A stretch of 64,000 nt of DNA from contig JAHDGJ010000004.1 in the NCBI GenBank assembly GCA_020627705.1, positions 62,001 through 126,000 of the forward strand, written 5' to 3'. The translations under genes were made by a program, and so were the position numbers. The DNA is from Saprospiraceae bacterium. Its GTDB lineage: Bacteria; Bacteroidota; Bacteroidia; Chitinophagales; Saprospiraceae. The stretch's first letter is position 1. Every line of letters starts with the position of its first letter. The notes under the pieces are model-generated. The model ran no database searches. It was not told where the DNA came from and was given only the letters and a program-made list of their open reading frames with translations. Positions 1 through 7,196 of the stretch are shown one piece after another.

Positions 1-2391
1 TAAAGCCAAACCTTCTTCGCTACGAAGCAAAGATGCATTTTCGAAAAAACCATTGGTTAAGATTTCTCCTCCAAGTGACTGAACCACATTATTGGTTGTA
101 CCAATGTTAAAATCTACATTCCATTTAAAAGGACCTTCGGCTTCATTATAACCCAATGTAAATTCAAAACCATCAACTAAAACAGAACCAACGTTTCTTG
201 GCCCAGAACCATTGTGCCCCCCCAAAGAAGGTGTCAATTGGACATTAATTAGGAGATCATCGCTAAGGTTTCGATAATATTCGCCAGATAAAGAAAGTTT
301 ATTGTCAAACATATAAACATCCGCTCCAACATTGGTCATTTTGGTAGTCTCCCATTTGAGCTCAGGTGACGCAACATTTCCAGCAGTCGTTCCCGTACCT
401 AAAATTGCTTCTCCAGATAGAGCATCAACAAATGAAGTAAAATAACTTCCAGTATTTATAGATGCCGAATATCTATAGTCCCCAATTTTGTCGTTTCCAA
501 CTGTTCCATGACTACCTCTTAATTTCATGTAGCTAATTGCTCCATCGGAAGGAAAAAAGTCTTCTTTAGAAATCACCCATCCACCTGCGACAGAATAAAA
601 TCCTGCCCACCTATTATTTGATCCAAATCTTGTTGAAGCATCTCTTCTATAAGAACCTGCCAACAGGTATTTTCCTTGATAATCATAATTTACTCTTCCT
701 AAATATCCTAGTCGAATGTATTCGAAACTAAATGATCCACCTTGAAGATCATTGTTGGTCAAATTATCAATTTCATTAGTTATCGCATTGGTGCTACTAG
801 CGCCTGCACGAGTATCAAAAGAGTTATTTCGTTCACCTAGGAGTAAAAAATCAAAATTGTGATTTCCGAAAGACTTCAGATAATTTAACTGAGCAAATGA
901 AGTTACTTGTCTATGTTTTCCAGTACCAAAACCTATTACGGCAAAAGGCACTGCTGTTGGTTCTCCAGAAAAAGAAGGAGTGAAGTTATTATTCTCAAAA
1001 ATCCAATAATCTAAACCACTTTGTACCTTAAATTTTAACCCTTCTAAGATCTCATATTGAGCATATAAGCTACCTAAAATATTAGTTCGTTGACTTTTGT
1101 TTTGAGGGTGTGCTAAAACTCTCACAGGATTTTCAGCATCTTGGGCATCTAATGCATTGTTGACCCCTTGATAACCACCGATATTACTTGAGTTAAAAAC
1201 ACTAAAATATGGCGGCATTTTAATCGCATGTTCTAAGGCTGAACGTCCACCTGCCGTATTTTCTGGTTTACGATTTACAAGGGAAACGGCTAGGTTTTGA
1301 CCTATTTCAATTTTTTTCTTTTTGAATGAACTGTTCGCTCTGAAGTTATACCTATCAGTACCGGTATTTAATAAAACTCCTTCTTGATTTATATACGCTC
1401 CACTTAATCGATAGTTCGAATTTTCACCTGCTCCCGAAACGGCTAAATTATAGTTTTGAAAAGTACCTGGTTGAAAAATTTCATCTTGCCAATCTGTATC
1501 ATGGCTGATCAAATCCGCATATTGAGGATCGTTTATTCTATCACCAGCAACCCCCCAATTGGCAGCGTGCTGAAGATATTGCTCCCTATTCATGACATCA
1601 AACCTTTCTGTAACTAATTGAGTCCCAACTTGCGTTGAAAGCTCAATGGTTGGTTCTCTGTTTTCGCCTTTTTTAGTGGTTACCATGATCACACCATTCG
1701 AACCTTGGGCACCAAAAATAGCGGTGGTGGAAGCATCTTTTAGCACCGTTACAGATTCGATATCACCTGGACTAAGGTCACCAAGGCCTTGCACTATTAC
1801 ACCGTCAACAACAATTAATGGACTGTTATCGCCCGTAGTACTGAGTCCTCTGATTCGTAAAACCGGATCCGCACCTGGAGATCCGTTGTTCATTACCATT
1901 ACTCCAGTTGCTCTTCCTTGCAAGGCCTGGTCTGCAGTAAAGGTTGCCACTTCAGTAAGCTCATCCCCTTTGACTGTCTCGATAGCTCCTGTGACCTTGG
2001 TTCTTTCTTGATTTCCGTATCCTACAACAACAATTTCATCTATCAATTCTGAATTTAACGTCATATAAACCACAACATCGTTAGAAGACTCATTGACATT
2101 TAGTCTGTAATCACTATAACCCGTATAGGAAAAAATTAATGTGTTTGATTCTGGCGGGACTTTTATTGTGAAAGAACCATCAATATCACTAATGGTGCCT
2201 TGTTCCGAATTTTCTGCTAAGATGTTCACCCCAATTAATGATGAATTATCACCTCTATCCAAAACTTTCCCAGAAATAATTCTACTCTCAGAAGAGTTAC
2301 TTTGGGCTGATAAACTTTGACTCAATAAAGAAAAAATCAAAAGAAGAGAAGCACCCAGAAGGGACTTTGTAATAGTTTTTAGCTTTTTCAT
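1..2391 (-). CDS. SusC/RagA-family TonB-linked outer membrane receptor (partial, C-terminus beyond window)
   Basis: Reading from an ATG at 2391 the frame stays open to base 1, giving 797 codons with no stop; the C-terminal part of the barrel lies outside the window (SusC proteins are usually about 1000 residues). Seen: a signal peptide starting MKKLKTITKSLLGASLL and ending in LSAQ, a carboxypeptidase-like regulatory domain (GKVLDRGDNSSLIGVNI, roughly residues 40-120), the SusC hallmark VVGYG followed by a TonB plug with LRIRG, then alternating beta-barrel sequence. Family knowledge: such receptors import oligosaccharides or peptides across the outer membrane, normally with a SusD lipoprotein, which would lie to the left of the window. 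It is downstream of the sugar kinase-HTH gene on the same strand, 216 bp away, which suggests a carbohydrate substrate. The substrate cannot be told from sequence. Confidence 0.93.
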   Translation of the reverse strand, partial: MKKLKTITKSLLGASLLLIFSLLSQSLSAQSNSSESRIISGKVLDRGDNSSLIGVNILAENSEQGTISDIDGSFTIKVPPESNTLIFSYTGYSDYRLNVNESSNDVVVYMTLNSELIDEIVVVGYGNQERTKVTGAIETVKGDELTEVATFTADQALQGRATGVMVMNNGSPGADPVLRIRGLSTTGDNSPLIVVDGVIVQGLGDLSPGDIESVTVLKDASTTAIFGAQGSNGVIMVTTKKGENREPTIELSTQVGTQLVTERFDVMNREQYLQHAANWGVAGDRINDPQYADLISHDTDWQDEIFQPGTFQNYNLAVSGAGENSNYRLSGAYINQEGVLLNTGTDRYNFRANSSFKKKKIEIGQNLAVSLVNRKPENTAGGRSALEHAIKMPPYFSVFNSSNIGGYQGVNNALDAQDAENPVRVLAHPQNKSQRTNILGSLYAQYEILEGLKFKVQSGLDYWIFENNNFTPSFSGEPTAVPFAVIGFGTGKHRQVTSFAQLNYLKSFGNHNFDFLLLGERNNSFDTRAGASSTNAITNEIDNLTNNDLQGGSFSFEYIRLGYLGRVNYDYQGKYLLAGSYRRDASTRFGSNNRWAGFYSVAGGWVISKEDFFPSDGAISYMKLRGSHGTVGNDKIGDYRYSASINTGSYFTSFVDALSGEAILGTGTTAGNVASPELKWETTKMTNVGADVYMFDNKLSLSGEYYRNLSDDLLINVQLTPSLGGHNGSGPRNVGSVLVDGFEFTLGYNEAEGPFKWNVDFNIGTTNNVVQSLGGEILTNGFFENASLLRSEEGLAL

Positions 2392-2502: not shown

Positions 2503-2523
2503 TATTTCGAATACAACGAAATA
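2503..2523. promoter_or_regulatory. Inverted repeat in the susC upstream region, possible operator
   Basis: TATTTCG (2503-2509) and CGAAATA (2517-2523) form a perfect 7-bp inverted repeat with a 7-base spacer, about 110 bp upstream of the SusC start. No T-run follows on the minus strand, so it does not look like a terminator for the kinase gene. Binding by any regulator is inference. Confidence 0.3.
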
Positions 2524-2607
2524 ATTAAAAAATAAAAGGCTTACAAAGGAAAAGCATACTTCATAAATACTACAAAGGTGAAAATTTATTACGCCATGAA
2601 TACGCCA

Positions 2608-4587
2608 TTACAAACTATTGATAAATGTAATTAGGTTTTGCCCTCTTGTTAAGAATAATTTTTTTCTTAAACGATATCGCTTAGTTTCGACCCCTCTTAT
2701 TGATATAGAAAGTCTTTTGGCAATTTCTTTTGTTGAAAGATTTAATCTGAGATAATATATAATCTGAAGGTCTGAATAGCTCAAATGCTTGTAGTTATGT
2801 TTGATCTCTTTCACGAAATCATCATTAAGTATTTCAAAATGCTCCGAAAAATTTTCTGCCTCGTAGGCTGTATATTGACTTTTACGTAGTTCACGGTTTA
2901 GTTTATCTAACAATTGACTCCCATTGACACTTACTCCTTCAAGTTTGTACTCTTTAATTATATTGGAAATGTTGGCCAATAAATCTGAGTTGTTTTCTAA
3001 GTAAATTTTTTGAGCCATCGATAATTTAGACACTTTCTCTAATTCTTTTTTCATCACCAAAAATTTACTTCGGTCTGCTAAGTCTTCGTCACTGCGCTCA
3101 TTTGGCTTGAGCCTTTTGTTGAGTATTGCCCTCCAAAATTCATAGGCTTGATAGCACTTTGCGTAATTCAGCTTAGGCTCATAGTAGAAATTTGGAACCA
3201 CTTTATTCAATGCTTCAGAGACTGATCCGTATATTTTTGATCCTACACCTGAAGCTAATGCTGCTCCTTGGGCGCTAGAGTTTTTTACTACTTCTATTGG
3301 CGTTTGCAAAAGCGTAGCAATAGTTTCTGAGAATATCTTGGACTTAAACATATTATCGTAAGCAACTCTTATGGTATTCACCTTAAGTCCTATTTGCTTC
3401 AGAAGATTAATTCCATATACAAATGAAAAAGCAACGCCCTCCAATGTTGCTCTATACACATGTGCTCTCGAATGTCTATTAAATTGTAGATTATGAATAT
3501 GGGATTCTATATTTCTATTGTTAAACATTCTTTCCGCACCGTTTCCAAATGGCAGTACGCATACGCCTTCAGATCCAATAGGAACACTCAAGGCCATACG
3601 CTCCATATCTTCGTAAGTTCGATTAAGTCTTGCAACATTACTATTCATCCAAGAATATTGAGTTCCTGCACCATTTATACAAAGTAGTATCCCTATGTTT
3701 TTGTAATGGTCCTCATAATTGACATGTGCAAATGAGTTTATTCTTGATTGCTCATCATACATTAAATGGTCAACTATACCATATACCACTCCAGAAGTCC
3801 CGCTCGTTGCAGCCACTTCACCCTTATTTAATATATTCAACGATAATGCATTATTGGGCTGATCCCCAGCTTTATAGCTCACAAGTGTATTCTTAGATAA
3901 TTTAGTTTCTTTAGATGCTGACTTGCATAATTTGCCAACTATATTAAAATTAGAAGCAACTGGTGGAATTAATGATTCCTCAATTCCATAAAAGTCCAGT
4001 ACCTCATGCGCCACTCTTTTCTCCTTAAAATTCCATAAAATCCCTTCAGATAATCCCGAAATGGTAGTTTCTAATTGGCCAGTTAATCTCGCAATGATAT
4101 ATTCACCAGGTAATAATATTTTGAAAATATTATCATACAGTCTCGGCTCGTTGTCTTTTACCCATTTTAATCGAGAATATGTAAAATTACCTGGAGAATT
4201 TAAAAGCGTACTAAGGCAATTATTGACTCCTAATTCTTCGAATGCCTGTCTACCTATTGAGACTGCCCGACTGTCACACCAAATAATACTTGGTCTTAAA
4301 ACTTCCAAATCCTTATCAACACAAACCAACCCATGCATTTGATATGAGATCCCAATAGACTTAATCTCTTTGCTATGAACATCTCCAGCTTTCAAAATTG
4401 CCTTAGAACATTTACAAAAATTATCCCACCAAACCTCTGGATGTTGTTCTGCCCAGCCTGGTTGTCTAGAGATGATTTCCATTTCTGAAGATGGGTAACG
4501 AACGTTTGCTATCTCGATTTGTGTATCCACGTTAACCAAAGATGCTTTTATATGAGAACTGCCGATATCAAATCCAATTAGATACAT
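2608..4587 (-). CDS. FGGY carbohydrate kinase (xylulokinase-like) fused to a C-terminal LuxR-type HTH domain
   Basis: 659 residues, against about 490-500 for xylulokinases. Residues 1 to about 485 are a full FGGY kinase: the first phosphate-binding loop GFDIGSSHIKAS (5-16), the sugar-site region SYQMHGLV with WCDSRA, the likely catalytic Asp242 in AGDQPNNA, and the second FGGY signature (RATLEGVAFSFVYG). The remaining 175 residues are a helical linker and then a winged/LuxR-like helix-turn-helix with LRLNLSTKEIAKRLSIS and VETKRYRLRKKL. That form is typical of the C-termini of Bacteroidota TPR/two-component regulators. The gene lies between a SusC receptor (same strand, downstream) and a divergent Na+/sugar symporter. 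Inference: a cytoplasmic kinase that phosphorylates a ketose or polyol and also senses it, controlling the flanking transport genes. The sugar is unknown; D-xylulose is the best guess from similarity. Confidence 0.9.
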   Translation of the reverse strand: MYLIGFDIGSSHIKASLVNVDTQIEIANVRYPSSEMEIISRQPGWAEQHPEVWWDNFCKCSKAILKAGDVHSKEIKSIGISYQMHGLVCVDKDLEVLRPSIIWCDSRAVSIGRQAFEELGVNNCLSTLLNSPGNFTYSRLKWVKDNEPRLYDNIFKILLPGEYIIARLTGQLETTISGLSEGILWNFKEKRVAHEVLDFYGIEESLIPPVASNFNIVGKLCKSASKETKLSKNTLVSYKAGDQPNNALSLNILNKGEVAATSGTSGVVYGIVDHLMYDEQSRINSFAHVNYEDHYKNIGILLCINGAGTQYSWMNSNVARLNRTYEDMERMALSVPIGSEGVCVLPFGNGAERMFNNRNIESHIHNLQFNRHSRAHVYRATLEGVAFSFVYGINLLKQIGLKVNTIRVAYDNMFKSKIFSETIATLLQTPIEVVKNSSAQGAALASGVGSKIYGSVSEALNKVVPNFYYEPKLNYAKCYQAYEFWRAILNKRLKPNERSDEDLADRSKFLVMKKELEKVSKLSMAQKIYLENNSDLLANISNIIKEYKLEGVSVNGSQLLDKLNRELRKSQYTAYEAENFSEHFEILNDDFVKEIKHNYKHLSYSDLQIIYYLRLNLSTKEIAKRLSISIRGVETKRYRLRKKLFLTRGQNLITFINSL

Positions 4588-4930
4588 ATTTTCGAAGCTA
4601 TCCTATCAAAACTAACACAAAATCAAATGTTGTGAACTGCTAAGGAAAATATAGAACGACAATAGCTAGACTTAAGGTCCTTTTGCACTAAAATAATTTC
4701 TATTAGCTTATCATTTATTTTTCAAGAGTGGCGAAGCAAAACAAAAAAGCTACACATATCTTTAAAACTTAAACGCACCAACTGCATGCTGTAAATTTTA
4801 TAACATTCAACAATCATTAGTAGATTCCACTATTAAAATTTTAAGTTTTAATCAATGATTCAGAATGCGTACTTTTAGCTCGTTTTGGACATAGATTTCA
4901 AAACAATCTACTACATTAAAAGAGAATGAA
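4588..4930. promoter_or_regulatory. Divergent intergenic region between kinase-HTH and symporter
   Basis: 343 bp with no credible ORF, AT-rich, holding the promoters of two divergent genes. An imperfect palindrome, ATTAAAATTTTAAGTTTTAAT, lies near 4833-4853, and a related TTTAAAACTTAAA stretch lies near 4760. Either could be an operator for the HTH domain of the divergent kinase, but AT-rich sequence makes such matches by chance. No convincing Bacteroidota -33/-7 pair could be placed. Confidence 0.35.
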
Positions 4931-6583
4931 ATGGCTATAGCAACTTTTATATTTTTCACGGCACTCGTAGCAGTTGGATCTTATTACTTTACCGGCAAAA
5001 CCGAAAATTCTTCTGAAGGATATTTCTTAGGAGGCAGAAGTCTCACCGCTGGGGTGATCGCAGGTTCATTATTATTGACCAATTTGTCCACAGAACAAAT
5101 AGTAGGTTTAAATGGTCAATCCTACACGGAAGGCATTTTGGTCATGTGTTGGGAAACTTTGGCTGCCATAGCTATGGTCGTTACCGCTTTATTTCTTCTT
5201 CCTAGATATTTGAAAGAAGGAATTACAACTGTTCCACAGTTTCTATCTACGAGATACAACACTACTACTAAAACTATTGCGTCTGCCTTGTTTTTAAGTG
5301 GATACGTGATCGTGTTTTTACCTATTGTATTGTATTCGGGATCTCTAGCCTTGGTAACAATGTTTGATGTACCGGCTGCCTTGGATATTTCATTAAACAC
5401 CGCAGTTTGGATTGGAGTCTGGAGCATCGGTATTATTGGATCCATATATGCCATTTTTGGAGGATTAAGAGCAGTTGCTATCTCAGATACCATCAATGCC
5501 ATTGGATTACTCATTGGAGGATTTGCTTTGACCTTTATGGGTTTAAGCTACATTGGAGATGGGTCGATTGGACAAGGACTAACCAATCTATACAATGATG
5601 CACCTGACCGATTTAATGCCATTGGAGGTCCTACCGCTTCTGTTCCGTTTGCAACGATATTTACAGGAATGATGCTGGTACAGTTGTTCTACTGGGGAAC
5701 AAATCAAGCCATTATCCAAAGGGCATTAGCTGCTAAAAATTTGAAAGAAGGACAAAAAGGCTTATTGCTTGCAGCCTTTTTCAAAATCTTAGGACCACTC
5801 ATTTTGGTCGTCCCTGGGATGATCGCTTACTACATTTTCAAAGGAGAAAATGCCTTGGAAGTGGCAGATCAGGCCTATCCACAATTGGTTAAAACCATTC
5901 TCCCAGTTTCTATGTTGGGCTTTTTTGCTGCGGTTCTTTTTGGAGCTATTTTGAGTTCATTCAATAGTGCTCTAAACAGCTCGGTCACCCTGTTTGGCCT
6001 AGACATTTACAAGCAACATTTCAACCAAGAAGCAAGCGACATGCAAGTTGTAAAGACAGGGAAAATATTTGGTATTGGATTAGCCATTCTAGCCATGTTT
6101 GTTGCTCCTTTTATTGCAAACGCACCAGACGGATTGTTTGGCTATTTACAAGAAGTAAATGGATGTTATAGTATTCCAATTTTGACCATCATTGTGGTGG
6201 GCTATTTAACTAAATACGTACCTGCAATTGCAGCCAATGTGGCTATTGTTTTAGGTTCTTTATTGTATGCTATAAGTCAATTCGTTTTGAAGCCTAACAT
6301 GGTGGGTAAGGCAGTAGATGCTGCGAAAGCTTCAGGCATCACGGACGAAGCTGCCCTCAAAGCAGTAGAAGCTGGAGCATATCCCCATTTCTTACATGTG
6401 ATGGCCATTCTATTTGTTTGTAATGTGTTGATTATGCTCATCATTGGATTGATTAAACCTCGAACAGAAGAATTCAAATTAGAGCATTCTGAAGACGTAG
6501 ACATCACACCTTATCGATTTGTTAAACCTGTTGGATTGGCTATTGTTGTTACCGTAATATTGACTTATGTGATTTTTTCATAA
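4931..6583 (+). CDS. Sodium:solute symporter, SglT-like (sugar/Na+ cotransporter)
   Basis: 550 residues, the usual size for the SSS family (TC 2.A.21). Seen: many hydrophobic membrane segments, the early motif SEGYFLGGRSLTAG followed by NLSTEQ, and a long helix series ending in a C-terminal segment (residues about 505-550) with ITPYRFVKPVG before a last membrane helix. These are typical of the bacterial sugar branch related to Vibrio vSGLT. The role is Na+-driven uptake of a sugar across the inner membrane. ATG at 4931 is chosen because it begins directly with the first membrane helix; an upstream overlapping ATG is out of frame. It is divergent from the kinase-HTH gene and three bases upstream of a truncated MFS sugar porter, so it is probably the working inner-membrane importer of this locus. 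Confidence 0.9.
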   Translation: MAIATFIFFTALVAVGSYYFTGKTENSSEGYFLGGRSLTAGVIAGSLLLTNLSTEQIVGLNGQSYTEGILVMCWETLAAIAMVVTALFLLPRYLKEGITTVPQFLSTRYNTTTKTIASALFLSGYVIVFLPIVLYSGSLALVTMFDVPAALDISLNTAVWIGVWSIGIIGSIYAIFGGLRAVAISDTINAIGLLIGGFALTFMGLSYIGDGSIGQGLTNLYNDAPDRFNAIGGPTASVPFATIFTGMMLVQLFYWGTNQAIIQRALAAKNLKEGQKGLLLAAFFKILGPLILVVPGMIAYYIFKGENALEVADQAYPQLVKTILPVSMLGFFAAVLFGAILSSFNSALNSSVTLFGLDIYKQHFNQEASDMQVVKTGKIFGIGLAILAMFVAPFIANAPDGLFGYLQEVNGCYSIPILTIIVVGYLTKYVPAIAANVAIVLGSLLYAISQFVLKPNMVGKAVDAAKASGITDEAALKAVEAGAYPHFLHVMAILFVCNVLIMLIIGLIKPRTEEFKLEHSEDVDITPYRFVKPVGLAIVVTVILTYVIFS

Positions 6584-6586
6584 GCA

Positions 6587-7196
6587 ATGAATTTGCGGTA
6601 TATCGTTTTTGTTGCGTTTGTTGTTTCCATTGGTGGATTTCTTTTTGGATTTGATGCTGCTGTCATATCAGGTGTTAATGGTTTTATTATCGAAGAATTT
6701 GGTTTGAGTAATCTCCAATTGGGATGGGTAAACTCATCCGTCACTTTTAGTTCGGCCCTAGCCATGTTACTTTCCGGTGCGCTTTCTGATCGCTTTGGGA
6801 GAAAAAAAATATTACTGGCCATTGCTTTTCTTTATACCCTTTCAGCTTTGGCCTCTGCCCTTGCCCCGAGTTATCAAGCCTTAGTGACAGCCAGATTAGT
6901 GCGTGGTTTTGCATTCGGCGCTGCTTTGGTTTTAGTCCCTACGTATATCGCTGAATTGGCACCTACCAAAATCAGAGGATCTTTGGTCTCTATAAATCAG
7001 TTGGCGATAGTACTCGGTTTTTCAGCAGCTTATTTTAGCAATTATTTTTGGTTGAATGCGAGCACCTCTGAAAGCACATTTGCACAAACCTATAATCTAA
7101 GCACCGAAGTATTGGAGATGGATGTTAGGGATTGAGGCAATTCCGGCATTGCTTTATTTTATCCTACTATGGTACTGGGCTCCAATCCTGATGTAG
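6587..7196 (+). pseudogene. MFS sugar porter, frameshifted and truncated remnant
   Basis: The first 175 codons are a good sugar-porter N-terminus: GGFLFGFDAAVISGVNGF in helix 1, SDRFGRKKIL between helices 2 and 3, and PTYIAELAPTKIRGSLVSI at helices 4-5. The frame stops at 7135 after DVRD. Dropping one T at 7112/7113 restores the family motif VWRWMLGIEAIPALLYF in the next frame, so a one-base insertion is the likely cause. The restored frame loses similarity near 7165-7170, where a broken NADH dehydrogenase begins on the other strand, and stops at 7196. Porters of this family are 450-500 residues, so more than half is gone. It starts three bases after the symporter stop, so it was once co-transcribed with it. 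Confidence 0.85.

Follow-up and report, generated by a model that had tools for sequence, protein, structure and literature searches.

The window, by which we mean the whole 64-kb stretch of DNA that was analyzed (G000:C8:62001-126000, from a genome of 3.7 Mb), carries on its minus strand an open reading frame encoding one protein of 659 amino acids, with an ATG start and no internal stop codon. The gene is separated by 216 bp from a susC-like receptor gene on the same strand, and its other neighbor is a divergent sodium:solute symporter gene, which is the setting that the first-pass annotation of this DNA had described (Table 1). Beyond the window, the minus strand continues with susD, an FG-GAP/ASPIC protein, further proteins, two GH10 xylanases, GH3, xylB, xylA and a second symporter, of which xylA and the symporter were labeled by similarity. 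A stand-alone XylB-like kinase that shares 54% identity with the kinase of the fusion is found 16.6 kb downstream of the fusion gene, and xylA ends 19.4 kb from it. The fusion heads a xylan locus in this genome. Directly behind the divergent symporter lies a sugar-porter gene of which only the N-terminal third is left (6587-7135, plus strand; 182 amino acids, covering 1-163 of the 452 positions of the Sugar_tr profile), which is probably a remnant.

Table 1. Features of the fusion gene and its surroundings in the window
Feature	Position	Strand	Basis
Fusion gene, 659 aa: xylulokinase-like FGGY kinase, helical linker and HTH	2608..4587	-	ORF, Pfam, end-to-end homologues
FGGY_N, residues 2-245, with phosphate loop and QMHG sugar motif	3853..4584	-	Pfam E 3.6e-46; active-site residues invariant in 30/30
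D242 codon	3862-3864	-	Inside FGGY_N
FGGY_C, residues 259-447	3247..3813	-	Pfam E 3e-11
Helical linker, about residues 490-600	2788..3120	-	AlphaFold2 models; low confidence near 497-503 in the full-length model
NarL/LuxR-type HTH (as modeled), residues 601-659	2611..2787	-	Sub-cut-off Pfam matches, conservation, tail model
susC-like TonB-dependent receptor, first gene past the array, runs off the window	1..2391	-	CarbopepD_reg_2 and Plug
Divergent sodium:solute symporter	4931..6583	+	SSF; no site pair in front
Predicted operator heptamer 1, TGGCGTA	2601..2607	-	Strict pair with heptamer 2
Predicted operator heptamer 2, TGGCGTA	2590..2596	-	11 bp from heptamer 1
Predicted operator heptamer 3, TGTAGTA	2568..2574	-	33 bp from heptamer 1
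Predicted operator heptamer 4, TGAAGTA	2557..2563	-	44 bp from heptamer 1
Degenerate promoter element TTTC	2518..2521	-	35 nt past the array

By Pfam the protein belongs to the FGGY family, with FGGY_N scoring 158.2 bits (cut-off 28.8) and FGGY_C 43.9 bits (cut-off 27). Its best NCBIfam model was the xylulokinase model TIGR01312, where the score of 283.6 bits lies under the cut-off of 380.25, and the protein was therefore filed as FGGY, xylulokinase-like, and not as a TIGR01312 equivalog. The ROK family was absent from the Pfam matches up to E 1, and the same searches gave neither a Reg_prop nor a Y_Y_Y domain in the fusion. In the tail, both GerE (PF00196; residues 602-653, 20.0 bits, cut-off 23.5) and Sigma70_r4_2 (residues 610-644, 23.9 bits, cut-off 25.7) fell below threshold. 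The Pfam search proposed in the first-pass annotation thus recovered both kinase domains above their cut-offs, but GerE stayed beneath its own.

An AlphaFold2 model of the fusion, built with 30 aligned fusions, had a mean pLDDT of 82, and its kinase part matched the xylulose-bound structure of E. coli xylulose kinase (2itm) with a TM of 0.85 on the target. D242 of the fusion was aligned with D233, a catalytic residue of E. coli XylB. The tail was modeled separately (pLDDT 86), and the best alignments were with NarL-family HTHs, namely the DosR C-terminal domain (Z 8.5, rmsd 2.3, 63 residues) and NarL (Z 7.4); Z values around 8 can reflect a widespread arrangement, and it is the NarL/LuxR family that heads the match list. 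Foldseek with the tail model returned nothing with E below 0.001, with response-regulator HTHs at the top of its list, and the best match of the tail sequence to a solved structure had only E 0.27. As modeled, the tail is a NarL/LuxR-type HTH fold despite the Pfam scores below cut-off, and within it R631, G632, E634, T635, R637, Y638 and R639 are invariant in 30 fusions. Residues 488-657 share 38% identity with the C-terminus of a protein that the genome also encodes and in which Pfam finds Reg_prop and Y_Y_Y, so that the fusion looks like the output module of such a propeller/Y_Y_Y protein placed on a xylulokinase. The single open reading frame, Pfam and the tail model bear out the earlier proposal of one gene joining a full FGGY kinase to a C-terminal HTH. 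That proposal had likened the HTH to those of Bacteroidota TPR regulators; its LuxR type agrees with the tail model, but the protein that the tail resembles is a propeller/Y_Y_Y regulator.

Distribution of the fusion and conservation of its kinase

Homologues were gathered from a scan of GTDB genomes, from searches of related genomes and from a later genome check. This gave 38 distinct full-length fusion genes and one partial gene (L142), and two more were found later (G472, G679). A full-length fusion was present in at least 31 of the 398 genomes of the window's family, where at least 228 genomes had any match at E 1e-60 or better; in this survey the fusion of G325 was partial, and G170 probably has one truncated where its contig stops. 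A search of the class with L041, itself a fusion, at the strict threshold of 1e-195 found the fusion in 2 of 395 genomes, the window's own included. An assembly artefact, or two genes run together, was rejected as the origin of the reading frame, and we give such a reading practically no weight, because the same end-to-end fusion recurs in 38 distinct genes and named strains are among the carriers (Fulvivirga kasyanovii, Marinigracilibium pacificum and Flavilitoribacter nigricans). The first-pass annotation had held that its idea would fall if no other genome shared the fusion, and instead end-to-end homologues were found in dozens of genomes.

A quick kinase tree was constructed from 30 fusions and 90 stand-alone kinases with a single outgroup. 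All 30 fusions grouped with L056 in one clade (SH-aLRT 99), and the simplest reading of this tree is that the fusion arose once. L056 (8001-9530, and about 400 bp beyond) is a fusion of Roseivirga FE80 in which the tail has decayed after the kinase, with a degenerate pair of the sites described below before the gene; judged by these remains, it is a natural loss of the regulatory half. In the neighborhood tally, xylA or a stand-alone xylB stood within 8 kb of the fusion in 22 of 40 entries, and any tallied xylose or xylan gene in 27 of the 40, entries that include short contigs, the partial fusion L142 and L133, a duplicate of L145.

The phosphate loop, sugar site and Asp242, reported as intact by the first-pass annotation, proved to be intact throughout the aligned family, since D7, G9, S10, K14, Q83, M84, H85, D105, R107, D242 and G263-G266 are invariant in 30/30 fusions. 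Divergence was measured over 139 columns conserved among the stand-alone kinases. Departures at these columns numbered 2 to 10 in the fusions, and the stand-alone kinases had a mean of 1.5 and a maximum of 10; among the 30 fusions the window copy departs most often, at 10 columns including G409A and G438S in FGGY_C. Residue 262 (window 3802-3804), beside the GTS loop, is S or C in all 30 fusions, and the same position is G or A in 88 of the 90 stand-alone kinases, L056 being among the two exceptions; the S or C of the fusions might tune turnover. Leaving the decayed fusion L056 aside, the closest relatives of the kinase are stand-alone Bacteroidota XylB proteins with up to 58% identity. A kinase dead across the whole family was considered and rejected on the invariant active site, though the window copy diverges most.

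In six related genomes (G267, G407, G385, G294, G240 and G368, with loci L044, L049, L052, L053, L134 and L136, respectively) the gene order is GH3, fusion and xylA with gaps of 3-94 bp, each genome has a single xylA, and the searches turned up no further XylB-like kinase in them. The fusion is the only FGGY_N match in G240 (100% complete), G294 (96%) and G407 (86%), and G267, G368 and G385 have another FGGY protein which is not XylB-like. In G267 a fragment of 45 residues from the start of an FGGY protein stands at another contig end, which makes its sole-kinase status uncertain. The four of these fusions placed on the tree show 3 to 5 departures at the 139 columns and form one nested clade with support 100, which indicates that xylB was probably lost once and not six times. 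Two further candidates were set aside: G173 was left out of the sole-kinase count as its second kinase begins at a contig end, and G219 was dropped as a genome combining the operator with a sole kinase, as its xylA begins at a contig end and xylB may be missing from the assembly. The simplest reading of these genomes is that the fusion is their working xylulokinase, occupying the slot of xylB. Because the fusion stands there in the place of xylB, kinase activity is very probably retained in the family, and the fused kinase may still be a working enzyme, a point absent from the first-pass annotation.

Heptamer arrays and their association with the fusion

A heptamer was first seen as a repeat in the stretches upstream of fusion genes. 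Its consensus is TGRCGTA in direct repeat with a spacing of 11 bp, and a typical array has four heptamers at 0, 11, 32/33 and 43/44; a strict pair was defined as TGRMGTA-N4-TGRMGTA. Such arrays stand after the fusion gene or before xylB, susC and GH26-GH3. In the window, the array between the fusion and susC (2557-2607) scores 35.4, against a best score of 21.9 in 60 shuffled 64-kb windows. The only pairs scoring at least 14 in the 64-kb window are the two of this array, and the strict pair occurs once in the 3.7-Mb genome, at window positions 2590-2607 within the array. Two stretches had been named earlier as places to look for DNA binding. The one between the fusion and susC (2392-2607) holds this fusion-linked array, but the one before the symporter (4588-4930) has no site pair, so nothing ties the symporter to the predicted operator.

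The arrays are also placed at a regular distance from a promoter-like element. The Bacteroidota -7 promoter consensus is TAnnTTTG, and a TTTG, which played no part in finding the arrays, lies 35-37 nt beyond the array in 26 of the 28 distinct arrays scoring at least 24 and exactly 36 nt beyond it in 20; the 28 are 29 minus L133 (the duplicate of L145), and some come from close relatives, so they are not independent. This TTTG is lacking in L138 and in the window, where TTTC stands at 35. Pairs also occur at the fusion gene itself. Within 300 bp upstream of it a pair is present in 23 of 38 genes, 21 of these pairs starting 18-42 nt before the start codon, and the window is one of the 15 genes without a pair upstream of its own start. 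In several genes (noted among L118, L120, L122, L135, L138 and L139) the pair reaches to 0-2 nt from the start codon, and the fusion mRNA there may be nearly leaderless, or the true start may lie elsewhere.

The strict pairs were counted in loci with and without the fusion. We obtained 39 strict pairs in 39 fusion loci (the partial fusion L142 among them), where 0.2 were expected, and 26 of the 39 loci had a site. The 53 xylB loci that do not themselves contain a fusion (712 kb in all; this set includes L061 and L077, with a fusion elsewhere in the genome, and the decayed fusion L056) had no strict pair, and a looser pattern gave 1 site over the same loci, in L061. The array as a general feature of xylB promoters was rejected on this zero, and the array as mere conserved flanking DNA was rejected because arrays precede different genes at other genomic places. 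Among 90 stand-alone xylB genes, each with at least 120 bp of upstream DNA, an array score of at least 20 was reached by 14, all of them in fusion genomes: 11 have the fusion in the locus, L058 has it on another contig, and for L061 and L077 it was found by genome search. That search covered 18 genomes, of which L061 was added because of its site and the other 17 were picked before the scores were seen; two had the fusion, one had a decayed copy (G463, L056) and 15 had none, and none of these 15 appears among the xylB rows scoring at least 20. The two fusions found later carry sites as well: G472 has a pair in front of the fusion and another in front of xylB, and in G679 an array lies between the fusion and susC.

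Counted over whole genomes, strict sites numbered 68 in 30 of 38 fusion genomes (backwards control pattern, 21) and 28 in 19 of 38 genomes taken as fusion-free (control, 13). Site presence alone separates the two groups poorly, and it is the position that tells. One of the genomes taken as fusion-free, G128, has two of those 28 sites 2.1 kb apart, flanking a frame-broken fusion which is followed by xylB and xylA. At L177 (1379-5663) a frame-broken fusion lies between two sites, followed by xylB and xylA and with a divergent sugar porter, the outcome of decay or of an assembly error. No strict pair was found in 8 of the 38 fusion genomes (G035, G045, G127 and five of the sole-kinase group), and the best array in the sole-kinase group is a weak one (16.1), upstream of susC in G240. 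Of ten out-of-locus strict sites in fusion genomes, picked by eye, four precede xylB (L180, L184), GH26-GH3 (L179) and susC (L181), and the other six (L178, L182, L183, L185, L192, L193) are not before xylose or xylan genes. None of the four sites inspected in fusion-free genomes (L188-L191) lies beside xylose genes. At L182 the strict pair (1963-1980) is next to another regulator with a tail resembling the fused one, either by chance or since a related regulator shares the site. A lone degenerate pair, CGACGTA-N4-TGACGTA, stands near -67 of xylB in Lewinella cohaerens (L065), whose genome lacks the fusion. What can be read directly in the DNA is the fusion with its conservation, the sites with their geometry and their link to it, and the xylan and xylose genes behind them.

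A candidate trigger enzyme and its alternatives

With a probability of roughly 0.7, we propose that a xylulokinase has here been turned into a one-component transcription regulator operating via TGRCGTA arrays at xylan and xylose promoters. An enzyme that also controls transcription is known as a trigger enzyme, and on the sequence evidence a xylulose-sensing trigger enzyme is the best reading. We infer binding of the protein to the sites, activation, the xylulose signal and retained catalysis. Xylulose made by XylA would be bound by the kinase part, closure of the kinase lobes would read it, and the state would be passed via the helical linker to the HTH. The HTHs of a multimer would then recognize the heptamers, which as a direct repeat one helical turn apart would lie on one helix face. 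The targets would be susC, and hence the xylan locus, in this genome, and the xylB-xylA, susC-susD, GH3 and GH26-GH3 operons elsewhere. The distance of 35-37 nt from the end of the four-heptamer array to the promoter TTTG downstream of it would suit an activator, and the single pair at the likely own promoter or start of many relatives (not of the window) suits autorepression. Where XylB is also present, the fusion would act chiefly as a sensor, and in the clade of G240 it would be the enzyme too. The first-pass annotation had suggested a one-protein sensor and regulator beside transport genes, which fits the conserved fusion and the linked array between it and susC; its choice of transport expression as the target looks too narrow, the likely targets being genes of the xylan and xylose pathway and not transport alone.

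The main weakness of this proposal is that the signs of regulation and those of sole catalysis come from different genomes. In the window copy itself, the lack of a pair at its own promoter, the degenerate TTTC and the most divergent kinase speak against it. So do the eight fusion genomes with no strict pair, the poor separation by genome-wide counts, the six inspected out-of-locus sites that lie away from xylose and xylan genes, and the lone pair of L065. The further claim, that the transcription factor is itself the working kinase of the pathway, its signal being consumed by its own sensor and the stand-alone xylulokinase being displaced in one clade, is one to which we would give even odds.

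The kinase of the window might be a receptor only, binding the sugar without useful turnover as a pseudo-enzyme regulator like BzdR while a separate XylB does the chemistry. A separate XylB-like kinase in the same locus, the 10 departures of the window copy with G409A and G438S among them, and S or C at residue 262 in every fusion against G or A in nearly all stand-alone enzymes would agree with this. We consider it unlikely, yet deserving of serious attention, as all 30 fusions keep D242 and the rest of the active-site residues unchanged, and the genomes with a sole kinase point to activity in some of the family. That the array belongs to another regulator traveling with the fusion, the fused HTH acting elsewhere or only on its own gene, appears very improbable: fusion genomes without strict pairs and the lone pair kept by fusion-free L065 would be accommodated, but the sites follow the fusion and not xylB, more than half of the fusion genes have a pair upstream of their own start, and an unsystematic look noticed no other regulator recurring at the loci. 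We give still less credence to a second xylulokinase that merely autoregulates, with the HTH controlling only its own expression and no sugar sensing. The pairs before the fusion's own gene and the intact kinase residues would be explained by it, whereas the arrays before susC, xylB and GH26-GH3 elsewhere in the genome would not, nor would the window, which lacks a pair at its own promoter yet has an array before susC.

Known regulators and the meaning of the fusion

On a common view, regulators originate from enzymes that acquire a DNA-binding domain, and the proposed xylulose-responsive regulator can be compared with known proteins on both sides. Stand-alone Bacteroidota XylB proteins (FGGY) share the active-site residues and are the nearest kinase relatives, but they have no HTH, carry G or A at position 262 (88/90) and are without strict pairs in the 53 loci. 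The Bacteroidota propeller/Y_Y_Y regulators resemble the fusion in their C-terminal linker and HTH (38% identity over 488-657), but carry a propeller and Y_Y_Y part where the fusion has a cytoplasmic-type kinase. The ROK-family repressors, such as XylR of Bacillus, NagC and Mlc, have their HTH at the N-terminus. They are like the fusion in outline, as a sugar-kinase fold and an HTH are combined in one sugar-responsive protein, and they differ in belonging to another kinase family with an N-terminal HTH, whereas the fusion joins an FGGY kinase to a C-terminal HTH of predicted NarL/LuxR type. ROK proteins are described as acting as kinases or regulators (PMC4856308). BzdR is described as an HTH joined to a shikimate-kinase-like domain, a kinase turned regulator by gaining a DNA-binding domain, and its authors call the loss of enzyme activity essential (PMC3602430). 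The fusion derives from another kinase, has its HTH at the opposite end and keeps the catalytic residues. In the XylR activators of LacI/AraC type, intracellular sugar is reported to control xylan and xylose genes (PMC12125979), and their LacI ligand domain with AraC DNA-binding domain is an architecture unrelated to the fusion. Our literature search found no regulator combining an FGGY kinase or xylulokinase with an HTH; it covered open-licence papers only and is weak evidence of absence. Enzyme-derived regulators are already known from ROK proteins and BzdR, and the FGGY-HTH design appears to be new within that open-licence literature.

The family seems to show the step before loss of activity, with an intact catalytic site, dozens of genomes and a predicted operator. 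Most fusion genomes have a second such kinase and some do not, and an old question of evolution can thereby be put to a direct test. The fusion is seemingly the only enzyme for the sugar step in a few genomes, and there one protein may be sensor, switch and enzyme together. If true, this would be a natural enzyme-regulator intermediate that keeps both functions, with a decoded tandem-repeat operator. The family also suggests how some Bacteroidota tie the expression of a xylan locus to a cytoplasmic sugar of the pentose pathway.
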